Virus record (IMG/VR): IMGVR_UViG_3300013127_000002
Coordinates: 23,843 to 87,842 of that record
Length of the DNA: 64,000 nt
Strand: one strand, 5' to 3'
Source: a virus
A model generated the notes under the pieces. The model made no database searches, was not told the origin of the DNA, and worked only from the letters and a program-made list of their open reading frames with translations. The translations under genes and the position numbers were made by a program. Positions 1 to 63,467 of the stretch are shown here, one piece after another (within the stretch, counting starts at the first letter, position 1; the number at the start of each line of letters is the position of its first letter).

Positions 1-120
1 CGTCCGACCCGGTGGTTCGGCAAGCTGTCGCCAATGAAGAAGGGACTTGTCGGCGGAGCCGCAGGGCTCGGGACGCTCGGACTCGGACTTGGTCTGGGTC
101 ACGCGCTGTCGGGAGATTGA
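1..120 (+). CDS. C-terminal end of a small Gly-rich hydrophobic protein (5' partial)
   Basis: An open frame runs from the window edge to TGA at 118-120 and encodes 39 residues; the start lies outside. The visible part ends in a glycine/alanine/leucine segment (core GLVGGAAGLGTLGLGLGLG) preceded by basic residues (GKLSPMKKG). This is the same design as the C-termini of the proteins at 422, 773 and 1089, so it is probably the tail of another member of the small-protein array. The segment is long enough to be a membrane helix, but its glycine density also allows a packing helix inside a virion. Function unknown. Confidence 0.6.
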   Translation, partial: RPTRWFGKLSPMKKGLVGGAAGLGTLGLGLGLGHALSGD

Positions 121-123
121 TGA

Positions 124-420
124 GTGACACCGTACGCGAAAGGGTGGTGTTCCGCGCTGGTAAAGCTGGGGCTGTCGAGCTCCGCCGTAGCGGCGACGTC
201 TGGCACCACTTCGGGGGCAAAGCCCGGGGCGACGACGAACACGACAACGGCGCCGAAGCAGTCGAAGCCGTGGCAGTGGTCGGCCGCGAACAACATCGAA
301 CCGAAGTTGCACGAGAACGCGTGGTCGCACGCGCAGAAGGATCTGGACACAGGTGAGTCCCGCGTGATGGCGAAGTTCGATGCGTCACAGAGACAGCCGC
401 AACTCCCGGTGGGAGGGTGA
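124..420 (+). CDS. Small protein with KLG-type N-terminal tag
   Basis: A 98-residue protein starting at GTG 124, just after the TGA of the previous gene. The N-terminus (TPYAKGWCSALVKLG) matches a short motif, aromatic-x-x-G-x-x-x-A/G-L-x-K-L-G, shared with the proteins at 773, 1433 and 5796. The rest is Thr/Ser/Ala/Lys-rich and probably disordered, and unlike its neighbours it has no Gly-rich hydrophobic C-terminus. The next start (422) lies two bases after its stop, so the genes are probably co-translated. The motif is read from sequence; a targeting or packaging role is inference. No known family recognised. Confidence 0.6.
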   Translation: MTPYAKGWCSALVKLGLSSSAVAATSGTTSGAKPGATTNTTTAPKQSKPWQWSAANNIEPKLHENAWSHAQKDLDTGESRVMAKFDASQRQPQLPVGG

Positions 421-421
421 A

Positions 422-763
422 ATGACGAAGACAGCGGAACAGATCTCCCTGGAGATTCTCCAAAAACTCGCGCAGTCGGGCGAAGAGAAGAGCCCAGTTC
501 TGCGGGGCCTCGCGGGAGCGGGAATCGGCGGCGCGGCTGGCGGGTTGACGGGGTTCGGGTCGGCGGTGCATCATGGGGTGAACAACCCAGAGCTCCGCAA
601 GGTCATCGAACAGCAACATGTTCACGGCGCGAAGACTCTGAGGCCCGGACAGGTTGCGAAGATGAATCGCTTCGGAGAGATGGGACGAGCAAGAACAGGC
701 AAGGGCGCCCTCATCGGCGCAGGACTCGGCGCAGGACTCGGAGTGCTGTCCGCGCTTTCATAG
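422..763 (+). CDS. Small protein with KTA-QIS tag and Gly-rich C-terminus
   Basis: A 113-residue protein. ATG 422 follows a purine-rich GGGAGGG and lies directly after the preceding stop; an upstream in-frame ATG at 380 would overlap the previous gene and is less likely. The N-terminus TKTAEQISLEILQKLA matches the starts of the proteins at 1089 (KTASQISDEVLWKLA) and an internal segment of 3110 (KSSQEIANEVLSKLG). Two Gly-rich stretches follow: GLAGAGIGGAAGGLTGFG near residue 30 and GALIGAGLGAGLGVLSALS at the C-terminus. These could be membrane-inserting helices. Possible internal virion or ejection protein; function not known. Confidence 0.65.
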   Translation: MTKTAEQISLEILQKLAQSGEEKSPVLRGLAGAGIGGAAGGLTGFGSAVHHGVNNPELRKVIEQQHVHGAKTLRPGQVAKMNRFGEMGRARTGKGALIGAGLGAGLGVLSALS

Positions 764-772
764 AGGTGAAAG

Positions 773-1078
773 ATGAACGCATTTCAACAGGGTTACTTGT
801 ACGGACTGTGGAAGTTGGGCTTCTCCGAGGAGTTTGCTGCGGCGCAGCCGCCGATGTCCCACGAGGAGTTCCTCGCGGCCAAGGGCGCAACGACACCCCC
901 GAAGGGGGTTTCGGCAGCAGCCAAGAGTGAAGCGGGCAAGGCGGCGAAGGGCGGCAAGGGTCTCGCGCACCACGGACGTCAACTTGGCGCGACGATCGCG
1001 AAGCACCCCGGCAAGGCGGCACTCATCGGTGGTGCCGGCCTGCTCGGTGCCGGCCTGCTCGGGCGTGCAACAGCGTAG
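773..1078 (+). CDS. Small protein with KLG tag and Gly-rich C-terminal helix
   Basis: A 101-residue protein starting at ATG 773 with AGAGGTG upstream. The N-terminus NAFQQGYLYGLWKLGFSEEFA is the KLG-type tag also seen at 124, 1433 and 5796. The middle is Ala/Lys-rich and low in complexity. The C-terminus (HPGKAALIGGAGLLGAGLLG) is a glycine zipper-like hydrophobic helix, nearly the same in pattern as the end of the 1089 product (GKAGLIGGAAALGYGAYKAF). Tag type and C-terminal type recombine between neighbours, which suggests modular duplication. Function unknown. Confidence 0.65.
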   Translation: MNAFQQGYLYGLWKLGFSEEFAAAQPPMSHEEFLAAKGATTPPKGVSAAAKSEAGKAAKGGKGLAHHGRQLGATIAKHPGKAALIGGAGLLGAGLLGRATA

Positions 1079-1088
1079 GAGAGGTGTC

Positions 1089-1433
1089 ATGCTGAAGACT
1101 GCATCGCAGATCTCCGACGAGGTGCTGTGGAAGCTCGCCGCGGCGTGGCAGCGTCGTGCTGCTCAAGTGGGAGTACCCCAGCAACAGATCAATGCAGCCA
1201 CGCAGACTCTCAAGGCACAGCGGCCTGACGCGCTTGCGGTGAAGCAGCGTCAGCTGGCTGCCCGGGGTCCGGCGGTGAAGCCCGGTGGCGGGCTCATGGG
1301 CGGCATCAAGAACCTGTGGAGCAAGCCGCTCGGCAAGGCGGGGCTGATCGGCGGTGCTGCGGCTCTCGGCTACGGCGCCTACAAAGCCTTCGGCGGAGGG
1401 CAGAAGCCGCAGCAGCAGTACGGAGGCTACTGA
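1089..1433 (+). CDS. Small protein with KTA-QIS tag and Gly-rich C-terminal helix
   Basis: A 114-residue protein starting at ATG 1089, behind AGGAGAGG. The N-terminus is LKTASQISDEVLWKLAAAW, the second tag type of this array. A Gln/Ala/Lys-rich helical middle leads to a C-terminal segment GKAGLIGGAAALGYGAYKAF followed by a Gln/Gly/Tyr tail. Its TGA overlaps the ATG of the next gene (TGATG at 1431-1435), so translation is coupled. The larger frame running in from 834 overlaps the 773 gene in another frame and is not the real start. Function unknown. Confidence 0.65.
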   Translation: MLKTASQISDEVLWKLAAAWQRRAAQVGVPQQQINAATQTLKAQRPDALAVKQRQLAARGPAVKPGGGLMGGIKNLWSKPLGKAGLIGGAAALGYGAYKAFGGGQKPQQQYGGY

Positions 1434-1888
1434 TGTACAAGCTCGCAGCGTGGGAACAGGGGTACATAGAGGCGCTCATCAAGCTGGGTATTGCCTACGG
1501 TCCTGGCGCGGCGGGGATCATGACGTCCGCGGACATGTACGTCCCCGAGCACAAGCCTCCGACGACATCTCTCGCCCAGCGGAAGTCTGAGATGGAAGCG
1601 TCTACCGGCGCAGCCAGGCAGAAGCGTGTCGCTGATCGGATTGCCATGGGTGAGAAGGCGACCAGCCCCGGCGGCAAGGCACTCGCAGCTCCTCTCAAGT
1701 TCCACGAGCACCCGATTACGCGTCAGGTGCAGATCAGCCCGGAGTACAGGGAGTACGCGAACCAGATGCGCGCAAAGGCCCCGGGCGTAGGGGCCGGCCC
1801 GGCCGCGGCGTCCAAGGCGTCACCTCTCAAGCGCATTGCCGGGGGGCTCACGAGTCTCGTTTCCAGGGGCAAGGTTCGCGCAGCCTAG
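1433..1888 (+). CDS. Small basic protein with KLG-type N-terminal tag
   Basis: A 151-residue protein. The start at ATG 1433 overlaps the stop of the preceding gene. After a short KLA lead, the KLG tag appears as WEQGYIEALIKLGIAYG, followed by a Gly/Pro-rich hinge and a basic, mostly polar body (SLAQRKSEMEAS, KRVADRIAMGEKA). The C-terminus (KRIAGGLTSLVSRGKVRAA) is amphipathic and basic rather than Gly-zipper-like. It is the last gene of the first tight run; a short intergenic gap with a hairpin follows. Function unknown. Confidence 0.6.
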   Translation: MYKLAAWEQGYIEALIKLGIAYGPGAAGIMTSADMYVPEHKPPTTSLAQRKSEMEASTGAARQKRVADRIAMGEKATSPGGKALAAPLKFHEHPITRQVQISPEYREYANQMRAKAPGVGAGPAAASKASPLKRIAGGLTSLVSRGKVRAA

Positions 1889-1891
1889 TTC

Positions 1892-1920
1892 TTCCCCTCT
1901 TCTTGCCGTTGACGTATACT
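1892..1920 (+). promoter_or_regulatory. Possible promoter (-10 TATACT) before the 1943 gene
   Basis: TATACT at 1915-1920 differs by one base from the bacterial -10 consensus. At the usual spacing the -35 position (1892-1897) reads TTCCCC, a weak match. The site lies in one of the few intergenic gaps on this strand. If used, transcription would start near 1927, inside the following hairpin. Inference from sequence only. Confidence 0.3.
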
Positions 1921-1937
1921 CCTCCTTAGTAGGAGGA
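1920..1937 (+). promoter_or_regulatory. Hairpin that buries the ribosome-binding site of the 1943 gene
   Basis: TCCTCCT (1920-1926), loop TAGT, AGGAGGA (1931-1937) form a perfect 7-bp stem. The 3' arm is the Shine-Dalgarno sequence, six bases before ATG 1943. In a transcript reading through from the upstream genes the site would be paired. In a transcript starting at the local -10 the 5' arm would be missing and the site free. Confidence 0.55.
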
Positions 1938-1942
1938 AATAC

Positions 1943-2491
1943 ATGCCATATCCATTCCCGTCCCCTGCATCCTTGCCGCCGTTGGGCGCGAGTCTCGATC
2001 TCGCTGTGGCGTTGGAGTTCGACGTGGGAACCCCCGTGTCCGACAAGGCGGCCAAGCTGGGACAGATGCTGTCGATTCCGTACGACCAGGTCATCATGAT
2101 GACGCACGACATGGAGGCGACCTGGCGGGATAATGACATCTCTGTTCCGATCCGAGATGATTTGATCACGCTCTACACGCCGCTGGCGGACCCTGAAACC
2201 TCCTACGTTGTGGGGATCATCATCACCTGCGAGATGGGAGAGGCGGTTCTCTATTTCTGCACGGACCTCGCCGAGACCGGGGCGTTCGACCCCCCGGACT
2301 ACCACTACATGATCCCGACGCCGATCACTTCAGGCGGGTGTTTCATCTACGTGAACAACCACGACTACGAGCGCGCAAACAACTGGCAGGGGCAGGTGGA
2401 TGTGCCGATCTACATCGGGGAGATTCTCGCCGGGGCGTTTCTGCCGACGCGGTTGACGTCGTACGTTTTCCTGCACACGAAGGGAGTATGA
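1943..2491 (+). CDS. Hypothetical phage protein, probably structural
   Basis: A 182-residue protein with a very strong ribosome-binding site (AGGAGG) that lies in a hairpin. The sequence is rich in acidic, aromatic and beta-branched residues with no transmembrane segment and no catalytic motif that I recognise. A Pro-rich N-terminus (PYPFPSPASLPPLG) precedes a mixed alpha/beta body. It is followed four bases later by 2495, of similar size and composition. Position between the small-protein array and the 3110 protein suggests a virion or assembly role, by context only. Confidence 0.6.
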   Translation: MPYPFPSPASLPPLGASLDLAVALEFDVGTPVSDKAAKLGQMLSIPYDQVIMMTHDMEATWRDNDISVPIRDDLITLYTPLADPETSYVVGIIITCEMGEAVLYFCTDLAETGAFDPPDYHYMIPTPITSGGCFIYVNNHDYERANNWQGQVDVPIYIGEILAGAFLPTRLTSYVFLHTKGV

Positions 2492-2494
2492 CTG

Positions 2495-3097
2495 ATGCAC
2501 ACCCGAGCACCCATTCTCGGACAGTTCATGGAATTGACCCGAGGAAAAGTCACGATGTCTGCGCAGGCTACATTCCCGGCGGGCGGACTGGCAACGGCAG
2601 ATCAGAAGCCGGTCGTCACGTGGGCGCTTGAGCACTACCCGTTCTCGATGCGCATTGGCGGATACGTGGATATCGGGGCGACTGACCCCGCCAGGGATCT
2701 GGATGACTTCACCAAGATCGCTCCGCTTTACATGGATGAGGCGATAAAGGATGGCGGGGAACCGCAGCTCGCGGGGATCAATCCCGTGAAGGCGATCCTC
2801 ATTCGTTGCTTGGTCGGGTCGGGGTTGATATACGTCAACGTTTTTCCGGGCGATCCTCCGGCTCCGCCTCCTCCGATTTCGGAGAGCGTGAAGCAGGCGG
2901 TGTTCCCGCTGCACGCGGGTGTCGGACTGTTCTACTACACGTTCCCGCGGAGAGACCCGTGGCGTTGTGTATTTTCGTCGGACAACTCCGGCCCCCCTCT
3001 GGTTACAGAGAAGATCACGATTCCGTCGTGTATCATCGACCTGGGGCTGCGGACGTTCGAAGACAGCAACCGCTTCCAGATGGAACTTTTTAGGTAA
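2495..3097 (+). CDS. Hypothetical phage protein, probably structural
   Basis: A 200-residue protein. ATG 2495 sits eight bases after AAGGGAG at the end of the previous gene. Beta-rich composition; a proline run (GDPPAPPPPISE) near residue 125 separates two parts. No signal peptide, membrane helix or enzyme motif is visible. Probably co-transcribed with 1943 and 3110. No family recognised. Confidence 0.6.
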   Translation: MHTRAPILGQFMELTRGKVTMSAQATFPAGGLATADQKPVVTWALEHYPFSMRIGGYVDIGATDPARDLDDFTKIAPLYMDEAIKDGGEPQLAGINPVKAILIRCLVGSGLIYVNVFPGDPPAPPPPISESVKQAVFPLHAGVGLFYYTFPRRDPWRCVFSSDNSGPPLVTEKITIPSCIIDLGLRTFEDSNRFQMELFR

Positions 3098-3109
3098 CAA
3101 GGTGGTGTG

Positions 3110-4846
3110 ATGCCTTTCAAGAGCGAAGCGCAGCGCCGTAAGTTTCACGTCATGGCCGAGCGGGGAGAGATCTCCGAGAAGAAGGTCAGTGAGTGGGAGC
3201 ACGAGACTCCCAAGAAGGTGAAGGAAAACTTGCCTTACCATGTAAAGAAGTCCTCTCAGGAGATCGCCAACGAGGTTCTGTCGAAGCTGGGTGCCAACCT
3301 GCCCAAAAACATCGGCGTTTTCACTGCGGGATCGGGTGGGCCTAAGGCTTTGGAGCGTGTCATGAAAGCAGAGCGCTCCATCCCACGACCTCCCCCGGCG
3401 AAGCCGGATGTCCCGATCGAGTGGCGGAAGTCGATGGCGCAACGCCCCGCGCCGCAGAACGAGATGTTGAAGTTTTTCTCTCTCAAGGAAGGACAGATCC
3501 CGGCGTCCCCGAACTCACCCGTGGGGTCTTCAGGCATGCCTACCGAGACCCCGACGGCTGCCAGCGTGGGCATGGGGAAAGGCAACCAGGCTCCGGCGTT
3601 CGGCCAGCCCGGCAAGATGGGCAGCGCTCTCGGTCTTCTCGGCAAGTTCGCGTCGGCAGATCCGTCAGCTGTGGAGGCCGCGGTTCTCAAGGCTTCTGGA
3701 CCCGGTGGTGGTTCGAAGCTCTGGCAGAGTCTCACAGGTCTCTCGGATGATGTTCTACTGGCCGGGATGAACATGAAGGAGAAACAGCGCCGGGCCCTGG
3801 AGCGTGGCTCTGAGAAGAACGCGGCTGAGACTCTGGCGTCTTCGATACTGATGCTCACGAAGATGAGCGAGGTTCCGAAGAAGCAGACCGAGGACAAGCT
3901 CAAGGGCGGACTTGCCGACAACAAGCCGGCCAGTGACTTCGACCCGGACCAGATGGAGATGGGCAAGAAGGTCGAGCTCGAACACACGGATGACCCGCAG
4001 CTCGCAGAGGAGATCGCGAAGGACCACCTCGACGAGATCAAGGACTACTACACCCGTCTGAACAAGATGGAGGACGAGGCACCGAAGAGCGCGGCAGCGG
4101 CGTGTGACACCCCCGGCGAGAAGATCCGGAGCAAGGGCAAGGGTCGTGGGGAGGCTCACGGCAAGGGAGAAGGCCCGCTGGGTCGAGTCCGCCAGATGTT
4201 GGAAGACGAAGAGAAGAAGGCGGCGCTGACACGTGCCGAGCGAGGCATCTACGAAAACGAAGACGCGAAACGCCGGCATTTCAGCGCCATGATGGCCAGC
4301 GAATCTCCCATGAAGACCGCAGAGATGCTTCGAGAGTCGCCGCTCTATTCGTCAACCCCGCTCCCACAGTCTTCGCCTTCGGATATTCTCCAGCTTCTCA
4401 AGGCACAGGCGTTGATCGAGCAGCAACAGCAGCAGATGAAGATGGGACAGATCAACGACCCGGGTGACGGGCCGCACCTCCCGTATCAGATGGAAAATGA
4501 GAATTCCGGCGACCAGATGCCGATGGGCGACATCCAGGCAAAGATGCAGCAGCAAGCGATGCTGGAGCGTCTCTACGCCGAGCAGATGCGGGCCAAGCAG
4601 GTCGAGGACACGTACAAGGGCAAGGTCCGCAGGGGTGAGCTCATCGGCGGGATTGGCGGCTTGCTGGGTGGCGGACTCCTGGGTCACGTTGTCAGCGCCG
4701 GCACGGGCGTCCACATGCCTGCGACGTTCCTTAGTGCCGGAGCTGGTGGTTTACTCGGTAAACACATCGGCCAGGGCATCGGACAACAGCAGGGTTTGGA
4801 GTATCTCCACCAGTACAGCGGGGTGCCGTGGGGGATCCAAAGATGA
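3110..4846 (+). CDS. Large multi-part protein with SEAQRRKF head and Gly-rich C-terminal helices
   Basis: About 578 residues from ATG 3110 (GTG 3107 is also possible). The N-terminus (MPFKSEAQRRKFHVMAERGE, then a W-E-x-E-T-P-K-K segment and LPYHV) is a short module I recognise as recurring at the N-termini of many phage and metagenomic proteins. A KTA-QIS-like tag follows (KSSQEIANEVLSKLG), as at 422 and 1089. The middle is charged and low in complexity, including a Gln run (IEQQQQQMKMG). Two Gly-rich hydrophobic segments near the C-terminus (GGIGGLLGGGLLGHVVSAG and LSAGAGGLLGKHIGQGIG) resemble the small-array C-termini. It overlaps the next gene by ATGA. Probable virion or ejection protein; no enzymatic motif seen. 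Confidence 0.6.
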   Translation: MPFKSEAQRRKFHVMAERGEISEKKVSEWEHETPKKVKENLPYHVKKSSQEIANEVLSKLGANLPKNIGVFTAGSGGPKALERVMKAERSIPRPPPAKPDVPIEWRKSMAQRPAPQNEMLKFFSLKEGQIPASPNSPVGSSGMPTETPTAASVGMGKGNQAPAFGQPGKMGSALGLLGKFASADPSAVEAAVLKASGPGGGSKLWQSLTGLSDDVLLAGMNMKEKQRRALERGSEKNAAETLASSILMLTKMSEVPKKQTEDKLKGGLADNKPASDFDPDQMEMGKKVELEHTDDPQLAEEIAKDHLDEIKDYYTRLNKMEDEAPKSAAAACDTPGEKIRSKGKGRGEAHGKGEGPLGRVRQMLEDEEKKAALTRAERGIYENEDAKRRHFSAMMASESPMKTAEMLRESPLYSSTPLPQSSPSDILQLLKAQALIEQQQQQMKMGQINDPGDGPHLPYQMENENSGDQMPMGDIQAKMQQQAMLERLYAEQMRAKQVEDTYKGKVRRGELIGGIGGLLGGGLLGHVVSAGTGVHMPATFLSAGAGGLLGKHIGQGIGQQQGLEYLHQYSGVPWGIQR

Positions 4847-5793
4847 AGCACGTTGTCACCCAGATCGTTCAGGCAACACAACAGCTGAACGAGAAACGAT
4901 CGTCCATCTCCCAGCTGTTAGGGAGTGCGGAGCGTTCTCCTGTGTGGCATGACGTGGCGGAAATCGGCGGGTTGGGCCTTCTTGCCGCACCCTCTGTTGC
5001 TGACCTGGCGGGTGATCCCTGGAAAGAGAAGAACAAGGCACTGGCTGAGATCGCAGGACTCGGCATTCTTGCTGCTCCATCGGCGCACAACCTCATCGGA
5101 AAGATCAGACAGCCGAAGGTTGCCGCGGATGAGCGCATCGGAGGGCCATACCTCCGGTACGACAACGAAACGTCGAACAAGGCGATCGGAATGCCCCCCG
5201 AGGAGCCGCAGTCCCCGGCCTTCTCAAGACCCGAACCTCCGTACAACGGCGGCTACACGATGAACGATGTCAGCCTGCCGCGCTACCAGTTCGAAGTGTC
5301 CGAGCAGCCGACGTTGGGGACGTCGAAGGCGCTGCCTTCCGCGAAAGAGTCTGTTGCGTCTGTTATCGACAAGATTGCCCAGGGCGTAGACGACATGAAC
5401 CAGGAGATGGCGCCGTACTACTCCCAGCAGCCGCAGTACATAGTGCTCCCGCCGCGGGAGAAGCCGTCCGGGTCTTTCGTGCCTCCCTTCGTGGGTGCGG
5501 CTGTCGGCGCACCTCTCGGGTGGCATGTCGGAGAACAGATGGGCCTGTCCAAGTACCCCGGGTACAAGACGCTGGATAAGGCCGTGGACTGGCTGGGCAA
5601 TCAGAGCTCGAAGCTCCCGAACTCGCCGCTGGTTCGTGATGCTGCTGACGTAGCCGGCGGAACCTTGTGGGGCAAGTACCAAGGCTTCAAGATGCTCGGG
5701 CCGATTGGTATGTACCGCTTGGGCGGTGCGGCGCTGGGTCTCGGTGGTGGGCTTCTGGCAGGTGCGCTGGTCAACAAGGCGATGGAAGACTAA
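4843..5793 (+). CDS. Gly-rich putative membrane-interacting virion protein
   Basis: 316 residues from ATG 4843, which overlaps the preceding stop as ATGA; a GTG at 4828 is an alternative. Two similar hydrophobic stretches occur near the N-terminus (EIGGLGLLAAPSVADLAG and EIAGLGILAAPSAHNLIG), an internal duplication of about 36 residues. The C-terminal half has further Gly-rich hydrophobic segments (FVPPFVGAAVGAPLGWHVG, then LGGAALGLGGGLLAGALV). Such segments could insert in membranes or pack as helices. It lies between two other proteins with Gly-rich helices. Function unknown. Confidence 0.55.
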   Translation: MKHVVTQIVQATQQLNEKRSSISQLLGSAERSPVWHDVAEIGGLGLLAAPSVADLAGDPWKEKNKALAEIAGLGILAAPSAHNLIGKIRQPKVAADERIGGPYLRYDNETSNKAIGMPPEEPQSPAFSRPEPPYNGGYTMNDVSLPRYQFEVSEQPTLGTSKALPSAKESVASVIDKIAQGVDDMNQEMAPYYSQQPQYIVLPPREKPSGSFVPPFVGAAVGAPLGWHVGEQMGLSKYPGYKTLDKAVDWLGNQSSKLPNSPLVRDAADVAGGTLWGKYQGFKMLGPIGMYRLGGAALGLGGGLLAGALVNKAMED

Positions 5794-5795
5794 CA

Positions 5796-6665
5796 ATGAA
5801 CGAGTACTTTTCCCGCGGTGTCTACGCGGCGCTCACCAAATTGGGGATGAGTCCCGAGGTGCTCGCCGAGCATCATGCTCGGATCATTAACGCCGCGAAG
5901 CGACAAGGTCACAAAGTTCCGACGTTCGCCGAGCTTAACGAGATCCTGCCCCCCGGCTGGGAGAAGAAGTACAAGGGCTCCTGGCAGGAAGCGTATCTCG
6001 GATCCGACTGGCTGAAGCAGCGCAACTCCGAAGTGCTGGAAGCCAAAGAGAGAGCACGTGAGAACGCGGCGTACCAGGCGGCACGGGCACGTCAGTCTGC
6101 GTCTTCTTCAAGGCGGCGGCAGTCGACAGGTGCGTCTTCTTATGACCCGTGGGAGGAGTACGCACGAAAGGAGTACGCACGAGCTCGTGAGGCAGGGCGG
6201 TGGGAGGAGTACGCACGAGAGGAGTACGCACGAGCTCGTGAGGCAGGGCGGCAGAAAGCAAAAGAGTCTCCTTACTCCAAGGCTTGGGAGGACTACAAAG
6301 CTCGAAGAGCGGAAGAGCAGGCCGAGTACGCGTCGCAGAAGGCAGAGAATGACCGCAAGTGGGAGGAGTCGAAGCGCCGCTGGGCCGAACAAGACGCCGA
6401 GTCGGCCCGTCGCTACGCTGCGCGCCAGGCCAAGTACGATGCCGCGCAGAACGCAGCAGCCGCACGACGTCGTGCGGCGCAGAGTGAGTTCCACAGTAGC
6501 TTCGAGGGTGGAGGAGGTTCGTCTTCCCGCCCGCGCTCTGGTGGTACTAGCGGCTTGGGTCTCGCCATCGGGTTAGGGGTGCCACTCACCGTAGCCCTGG
6601 CGTATGGACTGTCCGGAAGTTCGGACAGCAGCAAGAAGAAGGCTAAGAAGCGGGCAGCTCGCTGA
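5796..6665 (+). CDS. KLG-tagged protein with tandem Glu/Arg/Ala repeats
   Basis: 289 residues from ATG 5796; a longer frame from 5667 overlaps the previous gene and is not preferred. The N-terminus NEYFSRGVYAALTKLGMS is the KLG tag. Residues about 119-152 hold two 17-residue repeats (WEEYARKEYARAREAGR, then the same with K to E), within a long charged, predicted helical region rich in E, R, K, A and Y. The C-terminus has a Ser/Gly linker, a hydrophobic helix (GLGLAIGLGVPLTVALAYG) and a lysine-rich tail. The last 23 bases overlap the end of the convergent 6643 gene. Function unknown. Confidence 0.6.
   Translation: MNEYFSRGVYAALTKLGMSPEVLAEHHARIINAAKRQGHKVPTFAELNEILPPGWEKKYKGSWQEAYLGSDWLKQRNSEVLEAKERARENAAYQAARARQSASSSRRRQSTGASSYDPWEEYARKEYARAREAGRWEEYAREEYARAREAGRQKAKESPYSKAWEDYKARRAEEQAEYASQKAENDRKWEESKRRWAEQDAESARRYAARQAKYDAAQNAAAARRRAAQSEFHSSFEGGGGSSSRPRSGGTSGLGLAIGLGVPLTVALAYGLSGSSDSSKKKAKKRAAR
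6149..6250 (+). repeat. Two 51-bp tandem repeats inside the 5796 gene
   Basis: Copies at 6149-6199 and 6200-6250 differ at one base (AAAG versus AGAG), which changes one Lys to Glu. The unit is in frame and itself contains two shorter EYARxxEYARAREAG-like elements. The near-identity implies a recent duplication. Confidence 0.9.
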
Positions 6666-48774: not shown

Positions 48775-48966
48775 TCACCTCGGGTTGGGGATGTTTTGCA
48801 TTTCCTTCAGCTCAAACGTACCATCTTTCATGCGCTGAACAAAGAGTCGGAGACCGTTCACGCCATTCATGCACGTGCCGCACACGAACCCGATTTCGAC
48901 GCCTTGATGCATGACCTCGATGTAGTCCTTGTTTTTCTTGGTGGATTTGCAATTGATGCATTTCAT
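48775..48966 (-). CDS. Small four-cysteine zinc-ribbon protein
   Basis: 63 residues from the ATG at 48966 (MKCINCKSTKKN), which overlaps the stop of the ribonucleotide reductase gene. CINC near the N-terminus and CGTC near residue 30 form a two-knuckle ribbon. The remainder is basic. Coupling to the reductase could mean a partner or a regulator, but similar mini-ribbons are scattered through this genome. A frame extending to 49002 overlaps the reductase gene. Confidence 0.6.
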   Translation of the reverse strand: MKCINCKSTKKNKDYIEVMHQGVEIGFVCGTCMNGVNGLRLFVQRMKDGTFELKEMQNIPNPR

Positions 48967-51638
48967 GAGCACACTCCGTTTCCGTGTCCGCAGACCCGGC
49001 ACACACTACATGTGCCGGTCTTGACCATGGGGCTTCCGCAGTTGGAGCAGGGATCTTCGCTGAGGTCGTAATCCATTTCGTCGTGTTCCAGGGAGTCCGA
49101 TGCCGCGGCAGTCCGGAATTTCTTTTCTCGGCGGTCCTCGATTTCTTTCTGTTTGTCAGGAGTGAGGTACCGCTTCTTCATCCACTTGAATACGTAGTCG
49201 ATGATCGAGGTGGCAAACATGATGTCAGGGTTGGAAGTGATCCCTCCCGGGCTGAACTTAACACCCTCGAAACTCCGAACGAGTTCTTCCACAGGAACAC
49301 CGTACTGCAACAGGAAGGAACACGCCTTTGCGAAAGAGTCCAGCAACCCACTCACCATAGACCCCGGTTTTGCCATCCGGATGAACATCTCACCCGGTCG
49401 GCCGTCCTCGTAGTACCCGATGATCAGGTAGCCGGCGTACCCGCCGACACTGAACTTGTGTGTGTGAGACTCTCGGTCATTCGGGAGTTCTTCCCGAGAC
49501 AAGGTAGGTTTCTTTTTCCTTAACTCCTGCAATATCTCTTCGGCCCGCATAGGCTCGCTGAGCTTGCTTCCCTTTCGGTAGATGGAGATGGCTTTCACGC
49601 CACGCTCCCATGCCTTCAGGAAAGTCAGTTCGACGTCTTTTACGGAGGCGTTGTGCGGCATGTTGAACGTTTTGGATATTGCCCCTGACAGGAAGGGCTG
49701 TACGGCCGCGACCATTTCGATGTGTGCGTCCACCGACAGGAATCTCTTGGCTCCTTTTACGGCAGAAGCACAGTCGAATACTGCGAGGTGTTCCTCCTTC
49801 AGCCCGGATCTTTCCAGGTGCCGATTGTCGATGACGTAGGCGAGAAGATCCAGCCGCTCTTTCTCTGAGTATCCAAGAACAGTAAGTGCCCGGTCTATGT
49901 TCGGGTTCACGTAGTCCATGGTCTCCCCTTGGATGAGTATCTTCGTTTTCTTCAGTGCGTAATCCGGTTCGATCCCGGTGGTTGCACAGTCCATTACGAA
50001 GCCGATAGTGCCTGTGGGGGCAAGGAGGGTGACCTGACAGTTTCGGAACCCAACACCCTCTTCACCTCTCTTCCCGAAACCCGCACCTACTGCTTCTCTC
50101 CAGGTGGTGAGTGCCTTGGTGTGGATTCCTGCTATGTCTCGCTTCAAGGACTTGGTGGACGTAACGTGCTTGGAAAGCACATCCTCCATGGAGATCTTGT
50201 TGGCTTCGAAGCGCTCGAACGGCCCTTTGACTTCTGCCAGTTCGGTGCTGACCAGATACGCCTGTCCTGTCATCAAGCTGGTGATAGATGCTGCCAGATT
50301 TCGTCCGTCGTCGCTGTCGTACGGAAAGCCCCAAGCCATCAGGAGTCCCCCGAGGTTCGAGTACCCTAGACCCAGCGGGCGGTATTTGTGGCTATTCTCC
50401 TCGATCTTCTTGGTCGGGTATCCGGCCATTCCCACCAGGATGTCTTGTGCGGTTATGAAAATCCGGATGACGTGTTTGAACGTCTTTACGTCGAAGTTTC
50501 TTTCCGGCAGAGAGAAACGGTCCAAGTTGATGCTGGCCAGGTTACAGGCGGAGTCGTTCAGCCACATGAACTCAGAGCACGGGTTGCTTCCGTGGATTTC
50601 TCCGTCATTGGCGCACGTGTTCATCTTGTTGACGGTGTCGTGGAACTGGATTCCCGGGTCCCCACACTTGTGCGCCGCTTCGGCAATGGAAAAGAACAGA
50701 TCCTTGATCGAGACAATCTCCGCGAGGGACTGATCTGTGCGGTTGATGAGATGCCACGAGAAGTCTTCCTTGTATCCGTGAAGGACTTCACGTACCCGCT
50801 TCATGAACTCGTCCGTAACGCGGACAGAGTGGTTCTCGTTCTGGTATCGAACGATGGAGTAGGCCCCGTTTACTTCCTGGAATTCCGGGCTGAGTCCTCC
50901 TTCGACGAGGATACGTACGATATCCTCCTGGTTTCCCTTACTCCAGATGAACGCTTCGATGTCCGGGTGGTCGGCATTCAGGATGCACATTTTGGCGGCT
51001 CTGCGAGTCCTGCCGCCGGACAGGATGATGCTGGCGACGGAGTCGTAGATGTACATGAAGGAGACAGGGCCTGAAGCGTGACCGCCCCCGCGGATGCTCT
51101 CGGTAGACGCGCGTAGCGGAGAGAAGTTCACGCCCGAACCCGCCCCCTCCTTGTAAATCAGCCCCTCGGTTTTTGCCAACTCCAGGATGCTGGCCATGTC
51201 ATCTTCTACGGAGTTGATGAAGCACGCAGACGCTAGCGGTTTTGCTACTCCCGAAACGCCCACGTTGAAGAGCACAGGAGAGTTGAACATTGCGAGTTGT
51301 TTTACGAGTATGGTAATCAACTCGTCGGAGAAGATCTTTGCGTTGTTTTCGTCGAAGTACTCTTTCGCTACCCCCTCCGCCGCGATTGCCTTCACAATGC
51401 GAGAGAAGGTTTGTTTTGCGCTGGTTTCCCGTTCTGAAGATACCCGGGATTGCCGGAGGTATTTCTGGGCGAAGATCCCGCAAGCATCGAGAGACCAGAA
51501 GTCCGGAAATTCTGCATCGGTGCACTCGTAGAGGATCTTCCCGTTCTTGTCCTTACTGATGATGTGGTGTTTCGTCCAGTGCACTGCGCCAAAGGGGTCC
51601 GTGTTCTCCTGCGACAGGAGTCGTGGGAATTCGAGCAT
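48963..51638 (-). CDS. nrdJ: Class II (adenosylcobalamin-dependent) ribonucleotide reductase
   Basis: 891 residues from the ATG at 51638, five bases after AAGGAG; a GTG two codons earlier overlaps that site. Family blocks: SACFINSVEDDMASILELAK, GLIYKEGAGSGVNFSPLRAS, GSNPCSEFMWLNDSACNLAS, and the barrel segment LLAPTGTIGFVMDC. The C-terminus holds a Cys-rich ribbon (CSNCGSPMVKTGTCSVCRVC), typical of B12-dependent enzymes and probably part of reductant exchange. The enzyme makes deoxyribonucleotides using B12 and needs no oxygen or small subunit, so it works in aerobic or anoxic hosts. Host B12 supply is assumed. With the dNMP kinase it forms the phage's nucleotide-supply set. Confidence 0.92.
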   Translation of the reverse strand: MLEFPRLLSQENTDPFGAVHWTKHHIISKDKNGKILYECTDAEFPDFWSLDACGIFAQKYLRQSRVSSERETSAKQTFSRIVKAIAAEGVAKEYFDENNAKIFSDELITILVKQLAMFNSPVLFNVGVSGVAKPLASACFINSVEDDMASILELAKTEGLIYKEGAGSGVNFSPLRASTESIRGGGHASGPVSFMYIYDSVASIILSGGRTRRAAKMCILNADHPDIEAFIWSKGNQEDIVRILVEGGLSPEFQEVNGAYSIVRYQNENHSVRVTDEFMKRVREVLHGYKEDFSWHLINRTDQSLAEIVSIKDLFFSIAEAAHKCGDPGIQFHDTVNKMNTCANDGEIHGSNPCSEFMWLNDSACNLASINLDRFSLPERNFDVKTFKHVIRIFITAQDILVGMAGYPTKKIEENSHKYRPLGLGYSNLGGLLMAWGFPYDSDDGRNLAASITSLMTGQAYLVSTELAEVKGPFERFEANKISMEDVLSKHVTSTKSLKRDIAGIHTKALTTWREAVGAGFGKRGEEGVGFRNCQVTLLAPTGTIGFVMDCATTGIEPDYALKKTKILIQGETMDYVNPNIDRALTVLGYSEKERLDLLAYVIDNRHLERSGLKEEHLAVFDCASAVKGAKRFLSVDAHIEMVAAVQPFLSGAISKTFNMPHNASVKDVELTFLKAWERGVKAISIYRKGSKLSEPMRAEEILQELRKKKPTLSREELPNDRESHTHKFSVGGYAGYLIIGYYEDGRPGEMFIRMAKPGSMVSGLLDSFAKACSFLLQYGVPVEELVRSFEGVKFSPGGITSNPDIMFATSIIDYVFKWMKKRYLTPDKQKEIEDRREKKFRTAAASDSLEHDEMDYDLSEDPCSNCGSPMVKTGTCSVCRVCGHGNGVCS

Positions 51639-53342: not shown

Positions 53343-54391
53343 TCAAGACAGAGGTTACGCAGGAATGTATCCCGGTCGAACTCGATGACGGGATGAAGTA
53401 CCAAATCACGACGACTGTGGTTGTTCCGGGAGAGCTCCCGGACGTTTACCTTTTCGTGCACGACGTGATCGATCTAGTGGACCCCAAGCAAGATGTTTTC
53501 GTGCGGGTAGCTAATCCCTATGATCTTGAAAACATCGTCACTACCCGCGCGGCGGCTATCACCAACGGAACCAAGAGGTACCGGGCCAACGCATTTGTAG
53601 TTAGGTACACAGACGTAGAGTTGGCAGTTCAGGCGAAGCAGGCTGTTCTTCAGCGTGTCGATACCGCAGTAAACACATGGTACGTGTTCCGGTCCGAGTT
53701 TGAGGTTCCTGCTCCGCCTCCGCCATTGCCGATTCTGTACCGGCCGGAGACTGATGAGGAATATCTCCAGACTCTCGTTAACGCGTACAAGGCGGCGATA
53801 GAAGCCCGAGTCGCGGCCGAGGCAGATGCTGTAACCGCACAGGCTGCGGTTACGACCGCAGAGGCAGAGGCGGCTGCCGCTGCGGCCATGGTTCTCATCT
53901 ACGAGAAGGAGACCACCTTCTGTCAGACGGCGAGGACTACGTACTGGTTGAGTCCTTTGGGTTTGCTGAGCGGTGTATCGAATCTGTCCAGCAAGTCTCA
54001 ACAGTTCTTCAACGACTCGAAGACGATTTACAACACGTACGGAGCGTGTGGAACGTATCCTGCGTGTTCTGCTCTTCCAGGCACATGGCAGTACGATCTC
54101 CACGCAAAACTCCTGGTTATGGAGGCGGCGCTTACAGGTACAGGCGGATGGTCTACGAGCGAACCGTACATGGGTCTCATGGATACGGTTCTCGCCTCGT
54201 TCTGTAGTGCGGCGACAGTCGGGTACACAACGGCGGTCAATACCAAGAGCTCCAAGGATCTGGCAGTGGCCAATGCCCAGACAGCAAAAGAAAAGGCGGA
54301 CGCGAGTGTCGCGACCGCCCAAGCAAACGAAGATGCAGCTCTCGCTGCCATTATGACTGCGTGTCCAACGTTCGATATCTCCTCAATATGA
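53339..54391 (+). CDS. Hypothetical protein with duplicated domain, coiled coil and extra C-terminal part
   Basis: 350 residues. Residues 1-125 are paralogous to the 52968 product. After a Pro-rich hinge (PAPPPPLPILYRP), an Ala-rich helix (AAEADAVTAQAAVTTAEAEA) forms a coiled coil. Residues about 195-295 contain four cysteines in a Ser/Thr/Gly-rich region, and a second Ala/Lys helix (AKEKADASVATAQANEDAAL) ends the protein. The two helices could pair in an antiparallel hairpin. Structural role likely; no family recognised. Ends convergently with the 54383 gene. Confidence 0.6.
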   Translation: MIKTEVTQECIPVELDDGMKYQITTTVVVPGELPDVYLFVHDVIDLVDPKQDVFVRVANPYDLENIVTTRAAAITNGTKRYRANAFVVRYTDVELAVQAKQAVLQRVDTAVNTWYVFRSEFEVPAPPPPLPILYRPETDEEYLQTLVNAYKAAIEARVAAEADAVTAQAAVTTAEAEAAAAAAMVLIYEKETTFCQTARTTYWLSPLGLLSGVSNLSSKSQQFFNDSKTIYNTYGACGTYPACSALPGTWQYDLHAKLLVMEAALTGTGGWSTSEPYMGLMDTVLASFCSAATVGYTTAVNTKSSKDLAVANAQTAKEKADASVATAQANEDAALAAIMTACPTFDISSI

Positions 54392-55705
54392 CTTGATGGT
54401 GTCGTACGGAGTTCTATTTACTGAACTTAAAGGACTGACTGTTTTCGACACGAAGGGGATCCTTCCGTGTGAGCGGTAAACATCAGTCAAGTCTTTGACG
54501 TAGAAGGACCAGGACGCGATTTCGTTTGACCGCTTGTAGTAGAAATACTGCCGGAAGCCGTCGTCTTCGTAGCGGGTGTAGCGTGCGGCGTAGGACGTCT
54601 TGTGCCAACCACTTCCCATTGTCGGACTTTGTGAAAAGCTGGACACGACAGCCAACAACGCTTTCAGGCGTTTTGTGATCCGCAGCTTTTCCGGGTAACT
54701 TGTGCCGTATCCGCATTTCTGGATGATTTCCTGCGCCTGCTTGTACGTCATTGGGCGCTCTTCTCCGGTTCGCATATTGCCCAGCATGTATTGCAGTCCG
54801 TCACGGTACCGGAAAGTCAGGTAGTGCTCTTTCCCTTGGAAGTAACTCGATAGCCGTCCGGAGTTCTTTAACAAGTAAGCCAGTTGCGCATTCGTGTACG
54901 GGATGTTGCACACTTCCAGGATATGTTCGTAGTATGCGTCTTCGGACTTGTCGTAGGCTCCTTCGCACCATCTGGAACGATCGTTTGGGCAGCAGTGATT
55001 TACCAGACAGATTCCGCACACGTTTTTTCTAAACCGGTCCTTTTGTACCCGGGACTGTGCTGCCTCTTTTCTGGCTTCTATGTTCCGGTCTATTGCATCG
55101 AAATTTACAGACCCGACGGCGAGTCTCCTAGACGAGAAGCTGGTCTGGCCCGCGGTGTATATGGGGCTGATGAAGGTGTATCCTTCGAGCTGCATCTTGA
55201 GATGTTTCCAGCGCTCCAGTGTATCCATTATTTCTGAAGGTACGCGTTGTGTCTTTTGTGCTTGGTATATCTTCTTTATCTCGCAATGTAGTTCCGGATT
55301 TTCAACTTCGTTGAGACATTCGCTACACCCCAAGATCAGTTTGTGCGGCAGGGTACACGCGTCCTGTATGGTTTTCGGGTACATGAGTTTGTACTCCCCG
55401 TCTATGACGGCCGGGACTCGCTGTGCTTTCCCTTCTGTGAAACCCGGAGACATGATGTTGATGTCGTCTGTGATGGTATATCCCTGTTGAGTATTGAAGC
55501 CGAAACGCAACACAGGAAAGAACGCATCGAGTGCGGGCGACTGTAGCAGTCTCTTGGCGTTTTCCGCCTTCAGCGTGTCGCGGAACAGGAAGTACAGGTT
55601 GCGCAGGGTGTCCATGCCGTTTCCTCTGTGCCTCCGCCAGGTTTCACGACCGCTGAAGGCGTACGTGAATATCTTGTCGGGAATTTCGGCAGGTATATCA
55701 GCCAT
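54383..55705 (-). CDS. Cysteine-rich unknown, partner of the reverse transcriptase
   Basis: 440 residues, start at 55705; its start overlaps the end of the reverse-transcriptase gene by eight bases, so translation is coupled. Cysteines cluster as GCSECL (127, 130) with HC (140-141), and as CGICLVNHCC (230-239) with WC at 247, suggesting one or two zinc sites. Basic and aromatic residues are frequent (KTSYAARYTRYEDDGFRQYF). I recognise no known effector domain. By context it may be the effector, a nucleic-acid-binding partner or a chaperone of the reverse transcriptase. Confidence 0.6.
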   Translation of the reverse strand: MADIPAEIPDKIFTYAFSGRETWRRHRGNGMDTLRNLYFLFRDTLKAENAKRLLQSPALDAFFPVLRFGFNTQQGYTITDDINIMSPGFTEGKAQRVPAVIDGEYKLMYPKTIQDACTLPHKLILGCSECLNEVENPELHCEIKKIYQAQKTQRVPSEIMDTLERWKHLKMQLEGYTFISPIYTAGQTSFSSRRLAVGSVNFDAIDRNIEARKEAAQSRVQKDRFRKNVCGICLVNHCCPNDRSRWCEGAYDKSEDAYYEHILEVCNIPYTNAQLAYLLKNSGRLSSYFQGKEHYLTFRYRDGLQYMLGNMRTGEERPMTYKQAQEIIQKCGYGTSYPEKLRITKRLKALLAVVSSFSQSPTMGSGWHKTSYAARYTRYEDDGFRQYFYYKRSNEIASWSFYVKDLTDVYRSHGRIPFVSKTVSPLSSVNRTPYDTIKSY

Positions 55706-58794: not shown

Positions 58795-59796
58795 ATGATC
58801 ATCGACCAGACAAACGATACGGGTTACTCGCGACTCAAGGTCATGCTGATGCAGTTTCCTGAGATGCGAGAAATGACCAAGACCGCAAACGTTGGTCCGG
58901 AGGAGTTTCAGGATCTTCCGGCTACGGCATTCGCGTGGCCCGGGTGTCGCCAGTTCCCGATTCACACGAGAGAACATGCCGCCATGTCCTTGGGGTACCG
59001 GAAGTTCGCGTCCGCGGTCCCGCAGGAAGTGGATATGATGTTGAAGAAGGCGGCGGAGCTCTACGAGATTGATACCAAAATATTCGACCAAACGGTGACG
59101 AAGCAGGCGTCCCAAGACCAGTGGCTTCTGCCCGAAAAGCAGCGGTTCAAGGTAGCCTCTGCCGGGGACGTCAAGTTCGCGGAGCGCGTGCTCCACGAGA
59201 AGTACGCAACCCTGTCTGTCGAAGACCGCACACAGGCGTTCTACCGGCTTTGCAAGTTTGCAGAGCAGTATGACGTTCCTCTGATGCCCGCCACGCACAA
59301 GCTCGCAGGCTTTACCATCACGAGTACGCGGATGCTGAAGTCGGCATTCGAATCTCGGGAGATGGCTGCCAAGAATCTCGGGTCAAATCTTGCCGCTGCC
59401 TACGAGAAGGTAGCGCAGATGTTCGACAACACGGATCCGTATCTGAAAGATCGGTCGTACCAGCTCAAGCTAGCGTCTGAGCTTGCCCGACTGGACCGGG
59501 AGTCGGGAGTGGACCGCTTTTACGGCAAGTCGATTCCTGATCCGGTTCGAACGGTCTTCAATATGGACAAGCTCGCATCCGAGCACATCAAGATCGGGAC
59601 CGGTATGTTGGCGAACAAGCAGCTCCTTTCGTCGCTCCCCCTGACCTTCTGGGAGGATGTTCTTGGTCCCGAGATCGCCCAGGAGATCGCCCCGTCTGGA
59701 GAAGTGAATCTCGAACTCTTGGAGCAGGTCCTGCCTACCCTGCCTGCGGACATCAAGGCGACGGTCCAGCGCCAGCTGGCGGCGTACAACAAGTGA
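58795..59796 (+). CDS. Hypothetical virion-region protein
   Basis: 333 residues, ATG 58795 after AGGAGG. The block DQWLLPEKQRFKVASAGDVK followed by a helical region resembles a short domain (L-P-E-K-x-R-x-P/K-x-x-x-A-x-x-V-x-x-A) that I recognise from phage proteins encoded near head genes. Two blocks of the same type seem present (residues about 40-90 and 105-170). The sequence is helical, soluble and without catalytic motifs. GTGA coupling to 59793. Virion or assembly function is inferred from the position before terminase. Confidence 0.5.
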   Translation: MIIDQTNDTGYSRLKVMLMQFPEMREMTKTANVGPEEFQDLPATAFAWPGCRQFPIHTREHAAMSLGYRKFASAVPQEVDMMLKKAAELYEIDTKIFDQTVTKQASQDQWLLPEKQRFKVASAGDVKFAERVLHEKYATLSVEDRTQAFYRLCKFAEQYDVPLMPATHKLAGFTITSTRMLKSAFESREMAAKNLGSNLAAAYEKVAQMFDNTDPYLKDRSYQLKLASELARLDRESGVDRFYGKSIPDPVRTVFNMDKLASEHIKIGTGMLANKQLLSSLPLTFWEDVLGPEIAQEIAPSGEVNLELLEQVLPTLPADIKATVQRQLAAYNK

Positions 59797-61838: not shown

Positions 61839-63467
61839 ATGAAGACTAAACCTACAGCGCGATTCAGCGAGCTGGCAGAAGCATGGCTGAAGCTGGACGG
61901 TAGGTCGTTCCGCTTTGATTTATACCCCATGCACCGGGCCTTTTATGATGGGCGTTTTCGTCGCACGCTCTTCAAGACCGGTCGTCAGGTAGCAAAGTCC
62001 ACTTCACTGGCGAACTTCAACATCCTGGAGTGCTCAGTCATCCCGCACTTCAAGACCATGTACGTGAGCCCACAGAAAGAGAAGACGGTTATCTTCTCTA
62101 CTACGCGTGTGGCCAAGGTCATGCGCTATTCCCCGCATATCAGTCGTCGGTTCTTGACCTCAGACCTCTCGGACCGTGTTCTTCAGAAACAGTTCACGAA
62201 CGGCTCCGTGATGCACTTCATGTACGCCGATGAGGACCCGGAGCGTCTGCGTAGTATCTCGTCGGACCGGAATATGTTCGACGAGGTCCAGGACATTTTG
62301 TACGACCCGGTCATCATCATCGGAAACGAGACAATGGCCAACTCCAGTTACGGTTTCGAGACGTACGCGGGGACCCCTAAGACGATGGAGAACACCATCC
62401 AGAGTCTCTGGGAACAGAGCACGCAGTCCGAATGGGTGATGCGATGCGACGCGTGCAACACGCACCAGTTTGTGGACTCTGCAAAGTCGATGGGCAAGGA
62501 AGGGATCATCTGTCTCAAGTGCGGAGAGTACTTGGACCCCTATACCGGGCAGTGGATCGATTTCAACCGGCCGAAAGAGATGGATTATGAGCCAGCCTTT
62601 GCGATGCACGGTTTTCATATTTCTCAGCTCATCATGCCGGCGAACCTTCCCAAGGCGTGTGCCAAGCGGGGGTTTTCAAGTGCGATTGTTGAGAGAGCGC
62701 ACGAGCGGTGGACGCGCATTGTCGTGAAGATGAACGATCCGAACTACTCCCAGACACTGTTCAAGAATGAGGTCCTGGGAGTGTCGGATTCTCTAGGCGA
62801 GCGTATGATAACCAAGGAAGAGCTGGAGTCGCTTTGTGGAAACCGACAGCTCTTGCCGATTCCCAATAGCCTGCACGTTTCCGGATTCACACACATCGTG
62901 GCTGGAGTTGACTGGTCGGGCGGAGGGATGGACGGGGTTTCCCGGACGGTCTTGTGGATTTGGGGGTACCGACCGGCAGATGACAAGCTGGTTACTCTCT
63001 TCTACAAGATCTACCCGGGCATGAATCCGGTTAACTCTATCGAGGAAATCGCGTTCACGTGTAGTGCGTACAACGTTGCGCTGGTTGTGGGTGACGCGGG
63101 AGGTGGGGCAATAGCGAACAACCTCTTGCAACAGAAGCTGGGATATCATCGAGTGACTCAGGTGCAGTACGGAGCTCCCGCCAAGGCTCTGATCTTCAAC
63201 GGAGAAGACCGTTACATAGGAAATCGGACAACCCTGATCGACAATTATTTGATGCTGCTGAAGAACAAGAGAGCGGAATTCGGCAGGCTTCAAGATATGA
63301 CGATAGCGATCGAGGACATACTTAACGAATACGAGGAGCTCACGTCCTCAGGCAAAAAAGTATGGAGACACTCTCCGCAGAAATCGGATGACTGTCTCCA
63401 CGCGGGTGTGTTCGGGTGGATTGCACACAAGATTATTGCCGCGGACCTGCGGTTCTACCAGCGCTAA
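61839..63467 (+). CDS. terL: Terminase large subunit
   Basis: 542 residues, ATG 61839 behind GAGGGTGT. The ATPase has Walker A TGRQVAKS (47-54) and Walker B NMFDEV with Asp148/Glu149. A zinc knuckle pair (CDAC 203-206, CLKC 225-228) is inserted between ATPase and nuclease, as in the gpA-like terminases. The nuclease starts with VAGVDWSGGG (Asp358), then VVGDAGGG, and ends with SDDCLHAGVFGW, giving the acidic residues for an RNase H-like nuclease. The enzyme cuts concatemeric DNA and drives it into the prohead. No small subunit is evident alongside. Divergent from the MoxR gene. Confidence 0.92.
   Translation: MKTKPTARFSELAEAWLKLDGRSFRFDLYPMHRAFYDGRFRRTLFKTGRQVAKSTSLANFNILECSVIPHFKTMYVSPQKEKTVIFSTTRVAKVMRYSPHISRRFLTSDLSDRVLQKQFTNGSVMHFMYADEDPERLRSISSDRNMFDEVQDILYDPVIIIGNETMANSSYGFETYAGTPKTMENTIQSLWEQSTQSEWVMRCDACNTHQFVDSAKSMGKEGIICLKCGEYLDPYTGQWIDFNRPKEMDYEPAFAMHGFHISQLIMPANLPKACAKRGFSSAIVERAHERWTRIVVKMNDPNYSQTLFKNEVLGVSDSLGERMITKEELESLCGNRQLLPIPNSLHVSGFTHIVAGVDWSGGGMDGVSRTVLWIWGYRPADDKLVTLFYKIYPGMNPVNSIEEIAFTCSAYNVALVVGDAGGGAIANNLLQQKLGYHRVTQVQYGAPAKALIFNGEDRYIGNRTTLIDNYLMLLKNKRAEFGRLQDMTIAIEDILNEYEELTSSGKKVWRHSPQKSDDCLHAGVFGWIAHKIIAADLRFYQR

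Follow-up and report, generated by a model that had tools for sequence, protein, structure and literature searches.

In phage T4, the internal proteins join the core via leaders of 10–20 residues, which are later removed by the protease (PMC5694885). The protease of SPN3US has the motif A-x-E and prefers Ser at P1' (PMC10052503), and two paralogues in this phage, gp53 and gp54, have an identical 15-residue N-terminus (PMC5694885, PMC10052503). Virions of Salmonella phage Arash yielded 128, 40, and 38 unique peptides of RNA polymerase β, β', and the SNF2 helicase gp217, respectively (PMC10585845). The Arash proteome may include contaminants because coverage is improbably high for proteins with two unique peptides; the coverage figures look inflated and were not deemed credible enough to serve as a test of cleavage. 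The part of the literature that was covered gives no account of the tags described below or of a K-x-A head protease.

Here, we analyze a window of 64,000 nucleotides (23843-87842 in G000, an IMG/VR record of 87.8 kb) that opens inside an array of small genes whose products have common N-terminal tags. Our reading is that this array is probably a bank of inner-head cargo, in which the tag is a capsid-targeting leader, K-x-A is a protease site, and the tails suit ejected, membrane-acting proteins.

The source phage and its relatives

The source is a large uncultured phage, a distant relative of Arash. No cultured phage is a near match to the window at the DNA level; by RNA polymerase and terminase, those that come closest are Salmonella phage Arash and Vibrio phages D69, D148, and D181. 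The fused RNA polymerase is 35.8% identical to its Arash homologue over 100% of the length, the terminase is about 29% identical to those of the cultured Arash group, and the capsid protein and maturation protease are homologous to the Arash-like ones and are encoded in the same order. Two other IMG/VR records represent the same phage: G001, 99.95-100% identical over window positions 26950-64000, extends 26 kb beyond the window, and G002, whose RNA polymerase is 100% identical, carries on from G001 through the head genes. Positions below 1 or above 64000 follow the window numbering and lie on G000, G001, or G002 (G002 position + 81445); gene starts are predictions from a gene model built on codon usage. 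In addition to RNA polymerase (Table 1), the extension codes for DNA polymerase A. Relatives were gathered by RNA polymerase and capsid protein searches; locus searches started from the 578-aa array protein or from the aligned tags yielded no confirmed relative, the tag being too short for a tblastn check. Rfam and tRNA scans gave no match.

Several other genes stand out. The 1015-aa protein at the portal position (L007:10902-13949, window-numbered 77851-80898) has a LAGLIDADG domain and a weak Hint match and therefore probably contains an intein; the fused RNA polymerase gene is 5.3-6.0 kb long (vs 4.36 kb) in relatives L012, L016, L017-L020, and L022, which suggests an intein or intron. On the minus strand, the window encodes a class II (B12-dependent) ribonucleotide reductase (48963-51638; the Arash annotation is class Ia) and a reverse transcriptase (55698-56609) whose closest models are of the retron type (NCBIfam retron St85 RT, 2e-28, below cut-off; Pfam RVT_1, 1e-17), adjoined by a 440-aa gene at 54383-55705. 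Upstream of the window, an adenylosuccinate synthetase-like gene (L002:5919-7160, window -17923 to -16682; Pfam 3e-44, weak PurZ match) may be a sign of modified adenine in the phage genome, and a release factor 1-like protein (L002:16731-17480, window -7111 to -6362), with the N-terminus MATSLKTAAEQARALK, has a PCRF part and the RF-1 domain but is missing the N-terminal part.

The tagged gene array

The array is a single co-oriented gene run from -3085 to 6665 and starts 3.1 kb upstream of the window. It has nine KTA-type and five KLG-type tags. The KTA tag (consensus M-x-K-T-A-x-x-I-x-x-E-[VI]-L-x-K-[LV]-[AG]) is built of M-x-K-T-A/S, a helix, and then L-x-K-L-A; it starts genes at -3085, -2420, -2006, -1294, -1041, -792, 422, and 1089, and occurs once more inside 3110. 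KLG tags start genes at -305, 124, 773, 1433, and 5796. Within the proteome, profile E-values range from 4e-13 to 7e-9 for KTA (9 copies) and from 1e-10 to 3e-8 for KLG (7 copies). The profiles recover every tag that the first-pass annotation had listed (KLG at 124, 773, 1433, and 5796; KTA at 422, 1089, and inside 3110); the array it described is real but about twice as long, with six KTA and one KLG gene further upstream. On the overlapping contigs there are a KLG tag inside 85947-87431, a KLG tag at the start of gene 89239, and, at the start of gene 89925, a tag of a third form, KLAY (LLKLAYARGAFLALQEAGYHEKVA). A search of the whole phage, which the first-pass annotation had also proposed, covered about 114 kb, and there the KTA and KLG profiles have no further convincing match. 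Tagged genes on the overlapping contigs flank the RNA polymerase genes.

Table 1. Coordinates of the array genes and of marker genes, window numbering.
Position	Strand	Feature	Helix or remark
1..120 (3' part; gene starts at -305)	+	141-aa protein, KLG tag MFSSYQQGYIFGMQKLG	Gly-rich hydrophobic helix 43-99
124..420	+	98-aa protein, KLG tag MTPYAKGWCSALVKLG (124-171)	without Gly-rich tail
422..763	+	113-aa protein, KTA tag MTKTAEQISLEILQKLA (422-472)	Gly-rich C-terminal helix 704-760
773..1078	+	101-aa protein, KLG tag MNAFQQGYLYGLWKLG (773-820)	Gly-rich C-terminal helix 1016-1072
1089..1433	+	114-aa protein, KTA tag MLKTASQISDEVLWKLA (1089-1139)	Gly/Ala-rich helix 1338-1394, slightly below threshold
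1433..1888	+	151-aa protein, tag MYKLAAWEQGYIEALIKLG (1433-1489), K-L-A followed by the KLG helix	
1943..2491	+	182-aa gene within the array, no tag	
2495..3097	+	200-aa gene within the array, no tag	
3110..4846	+	578-aa fusion: MPFKS domain, internal KTA tag KKSSQEIANEVLSKLG (3245-3292), DUF5661 domain	Gly-rich helix 4640-4696
4843..5793	+	316-aa protein, no KTA/KLG tag	Gly-rich C-terminal helix 5719-5775
5796..6665	+	289-aa protein, KLG tag MNEYFSRGVYAALTKLG (5796-5846)	hydrophobic C-terminal helix 6555-6611
58795..59796	+	333-aa protein encoded close to the terminase, conserved in all relatives	14 K-x-A vs 2.6 expected
61839..63467	+	terminase large subunit, gpA type	groups the phage with Arash-like phages
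81599-85957		fused β-β' RNA polymerase	extension
87433-89235		additional β' part of RNA polymerase	extension

The first-pass annotation had described two interchangeable N-terminal tags. The shared labels are upheld; KTA and KLG tags align in register (QIGNEVLTKLA / QGYIEALIKLG) and look like variants of a single helix. The tagged genes are adjacent and lie on one strand, as they would if the tags were relics of a recent tandem duplication of one gene or a DNA-level signal for translation or regulation. Such an origin is very improbable: codons for the same residue within KTA tags differ in 57% of comparisons vs 59% expected under independent choice, and tags recur in relatives on other cargo, also internally and C-terminally. 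Codons as varied as chance allows argue that selection acts on the peptide, and this divergence largely refutes both duplication and a nucleotide signal.

The second common element is a Gly-rich hydrophobic helix, present in 11/16 array proteins vs 4/102 others under a stricter rule (p = 5e-9) and, under a looser one, in 11/17 strictly tagged proteins vs 21/125 others (p = 8e-5). These C-terminal helices had been noted before and are borne out by the counts, with 1089 falling just short; the helix is missing or weak in 124, 1433, -1041, and -3085. The middles of the array proteins have only weak mutual similarity, mainly through the Gly-rich tails, in line with the earlier view that tags are joined to otherwise unrelated middles; the MPFKS and DUF5661 parts of 3110 are separate genes in relative G016. 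Ejection proteins of the T7 and P22 type, which are thought to exit the head with the DNA, have membrane-active helices that are hydrophobic and Gly/Ala-rich. The Gly-rich tails of the array suggest a later role in ejection or at the host membrane, separate from that of the tag.

Tags in relatives and on enzymes

KTA tags are present in relatives G007, G008, G011, G012, G014, and G015. A wider profile, GY..AL..LG..KxA, finds tags in most relatives, nearly all of them N-terminal: across ten phage records, 24/1450 N-terminal windows score at least 14 bits vs 1/1170 internal windows (a fusion) and 0/1450 reversed ones. KLG tags of relatives end LG-phi-x-K-x-A. In G016, tagged neighbours form a separate run (114781-119324), and some proteins of the group have tags at both ends or in tandem, or tags that are internal or C-terminal. 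In a 183-aa protein of G014 (142940-143491; L147:2940-3491), an MPFKS domain is accompanied by a tandem pair of almost identical KTA tags. Among cultured relatives, Arash and D69 were looked at: no recognisable KTA/KLG tags are found in the head region of D69, the region read, and neither tags nor an array in the whole Arash genome.

The tags are not confined to small proteins. In this phage, the gene for a 494-aa LigD_N/primase-polymerase protein with a conserved internal tag lies between the RNA polymerase genes, whose products in Arash are abundant in the virion; most orthologues of this protein have the tag behind the enzyme domains, usually directly after K-x-A, and a related enzyme of G016 has it in front, at the N-terminus. 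Between its RNA polymerase genes, G016 also encodes a DNA ligase that is tagged and has LigD_N and GNAT domains. A tagged helicase of G008, of the same type as its homologue gp217 from Arash virions, begins MKPKTIPSGIFNKTAAEVL, and the Arash RNA polymerase begins MPKSAS. Most small array proteins lack a homologue even in close relatives; tags that recur on differing cargo of this kind indicate that the label is common and portable while the cargo turns over.

Distribution on enzymes bears on another account of the array, in which host-acting membrane proteins are made during infection, helix and tail serve insertion, and the tag has no part in packaging. The enrichment of Gly-rich hydrophobic helices among tagged proteins agrees with such an account, yet it is quite unlikely to hold, given that the tags also occur on soluble enzymes (LigD_N/primase-polymerase, DNA ligase/GNAT) and inside fusions, and have K-x-A in common with scaffold, protease, and capsid.

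The K-x-A signature of the head module

An unbiased scan ranked all gapped residue pairs with gaps of 1-5 (about 1300-1500 pairs). Of these, K-x-A has the strongest enrichment in the head modules of 4/4 diverged phages (z 5.4 to 9.0), with observed/expected counts of 69/24.4 in this phage, 67/25.2 in G007, 44/19.9 in Arash, and 49/20.2 in D69; outside the head module there is no enrichment (160/161.8 in this phage, 211/240.9 in Arash). In the rest of this phage, blocks of comparable size reach z ≤4.3; the block with z 4.3 holds, by our reading of gene order, the terminase and the product of 58795..59796, which is probably a head-module protein itself. Upstream of the capsid gene, K-x-A is the top-ranked pair in 40/40 IMG/VR loci, and it is so in 0 of the downstream regions tested. 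It occupies the same position, near residue 30, in 80/80 capsid proteins, with variable flanks; as related loci are not mutually independent, these are counts and not probabilities. The protease, which matches phrog_18299, head maturation protease (E 5e-12), has K37 and A39 among just five invariant residues in its first 53 (eight proteases, including those of Arash and D69). In head modules, the context is [LMIF]-E-K-x-A-[SA].

Applied to a T4-like head module, the same scan recovers the known gp21 sites, I-x-E in first place and L-x-E in fourth; with the leaders of SPN3US, a small set, the true motif A-x-E comes only 31st of 738. K-x-A is thus probably the site cut by the head-maturation protease, a prediction based on the head-module enrichment, the invariant sites in capsid and protease leaders, the T4 control, and a context of the P3-x-P1 form. 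K-L-G was considered as a cleavage site and dropped because K-x-G is not enriched in head modules. A PDB sequence search with protease and capsid profiles gave no useful match, and AlphaFold models of the protease domain and the capsid protein (mean pLDDT 37 and 32) were set aside.

K-x-A stands at one or both ends of most tags and recurs many times in the scaffold, the protease, and the capsid leader. The KLG tags of this phage often lack it, and several consist of the helix alone, so that the helix and K-x-A may have separate functions, in targeting and cutting, respectively. The same observation fits a different proposal: the tag is a docking helix for a scaffold or inner-head partner, K-x-A forms a binding surface, and the cargo is packaged uncut. 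K-x-A repeats also bound helical repeat units in the Arash and D69 scaffolds, as docking might lead one to expect. We nevertheless regard docking without cutting as unlikely, in that the single invariant K-x-A of the capsid and protease leaders lies where maturation sites usually do, and the T4 control recovers cleavage sites rather than docking sites. In the scaffold-like protein gp223 of Arash (L028:48209-48976), K-x-A bounds each of three repeats of the form LEKxAxxxxLxxxGxxFxxAxxLVKEAS. The KLAY tag resembles a scaffold repeat in build only, and its profile has no significant match to the scaffold repeats.

A putative head-cargo leader and known systems

The first-pass annotation had taken the tags for a sorting code, for packing into the head, ejection into the host, or membrane insertion. 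A sorting code fits, and among the three options the K-x-A common to tags, scaffold, protease, and capsid N-terminus favours head packing, which is also supported by the tagged enzymes encoded beside the RNA polymerase genes and by the Arash virion proteome. We propose that this myovirus packages its own multisubunit RNA polymerase together with the small inner-head proteins of the array. The tag would act as a short amphipathic helix that, like a T4 CTS, brings otherwise unrelated proteins into the scaffold core while the prohead forms, and K-x-A would be the P3-x-P1 recognition site of the phage's head-maturation protease; with this site in both leaders and scaffold, both would be cut as the head matures. 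After cutting, the Gly-rich hydrophobic tails would suit ejection with the DNA and action in or on the host membrane. A bolder version, to which we give somewhat less than even chances, extends the code to the whole clade: a portable, K-x-A-bounded helix at the N-terminus, at the C-terminus, or in the middle would load dozens of effectors and RNA polymerase for ejection, the protease would split fused cargo as polyproteins, and the helix would perhaps copy the scaffold repeat unit.

The tag could provide a sequence-only means to list the inner-head, probably injected, proteins of a widespread and nearly uncultured group of large phages; it is the sole handle on this cargo, since the genes are unrecognisable by homology. 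K-x-A in turn predicts where the head protease of these phages cuts, and if the tag works as that of T4 does, it is also a defined peptide with which proteins of choice could be loaded into the head of a large phage.

The closest parallel is the T4 CTS of the internal proteins and Alt, where gp21 cuts [I/L]-x-E. In both systems, a short N-terminal leader is common to unrelated proteins and has the same signature as scaffold, protease, and capsid leader; here, K-x-A in leaders is clear for the KTA tags and the relatives' KLG tags and partial for the KLG tags of this phage. The differences lie in the sequence, in K-x-A as the predicted site, in the existence of several tag variants, in far more tagged genes per array, and in tags that can also be internal or C-terminal. 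Compared with T4 leaders, the tags lack I/L-x-E at the leader end, and, known here from sequence alone, would work like a CTS without being classed as its homologue. The tails resemble T7/P22 ejection proteins in composition only. SPN3US and phiKZ (protease gp245) are likewise phages with a virion RNA polymerase, a P3-x-P1 motif, and Ser preferred after the cut, but their leaders are mostly >100 residues long, their motif is A-x-E, and their RNA polymerase comprises five separate subunits in place of a fused β-β' chain and a β' part. The KTA/KLG array sets this phage apart from Arash, with which, as with D69, D148, and D181, it shares the fused RNA polymerase, the order of head genes, the K-x-A signature, and K-E-A in the capsid protein.
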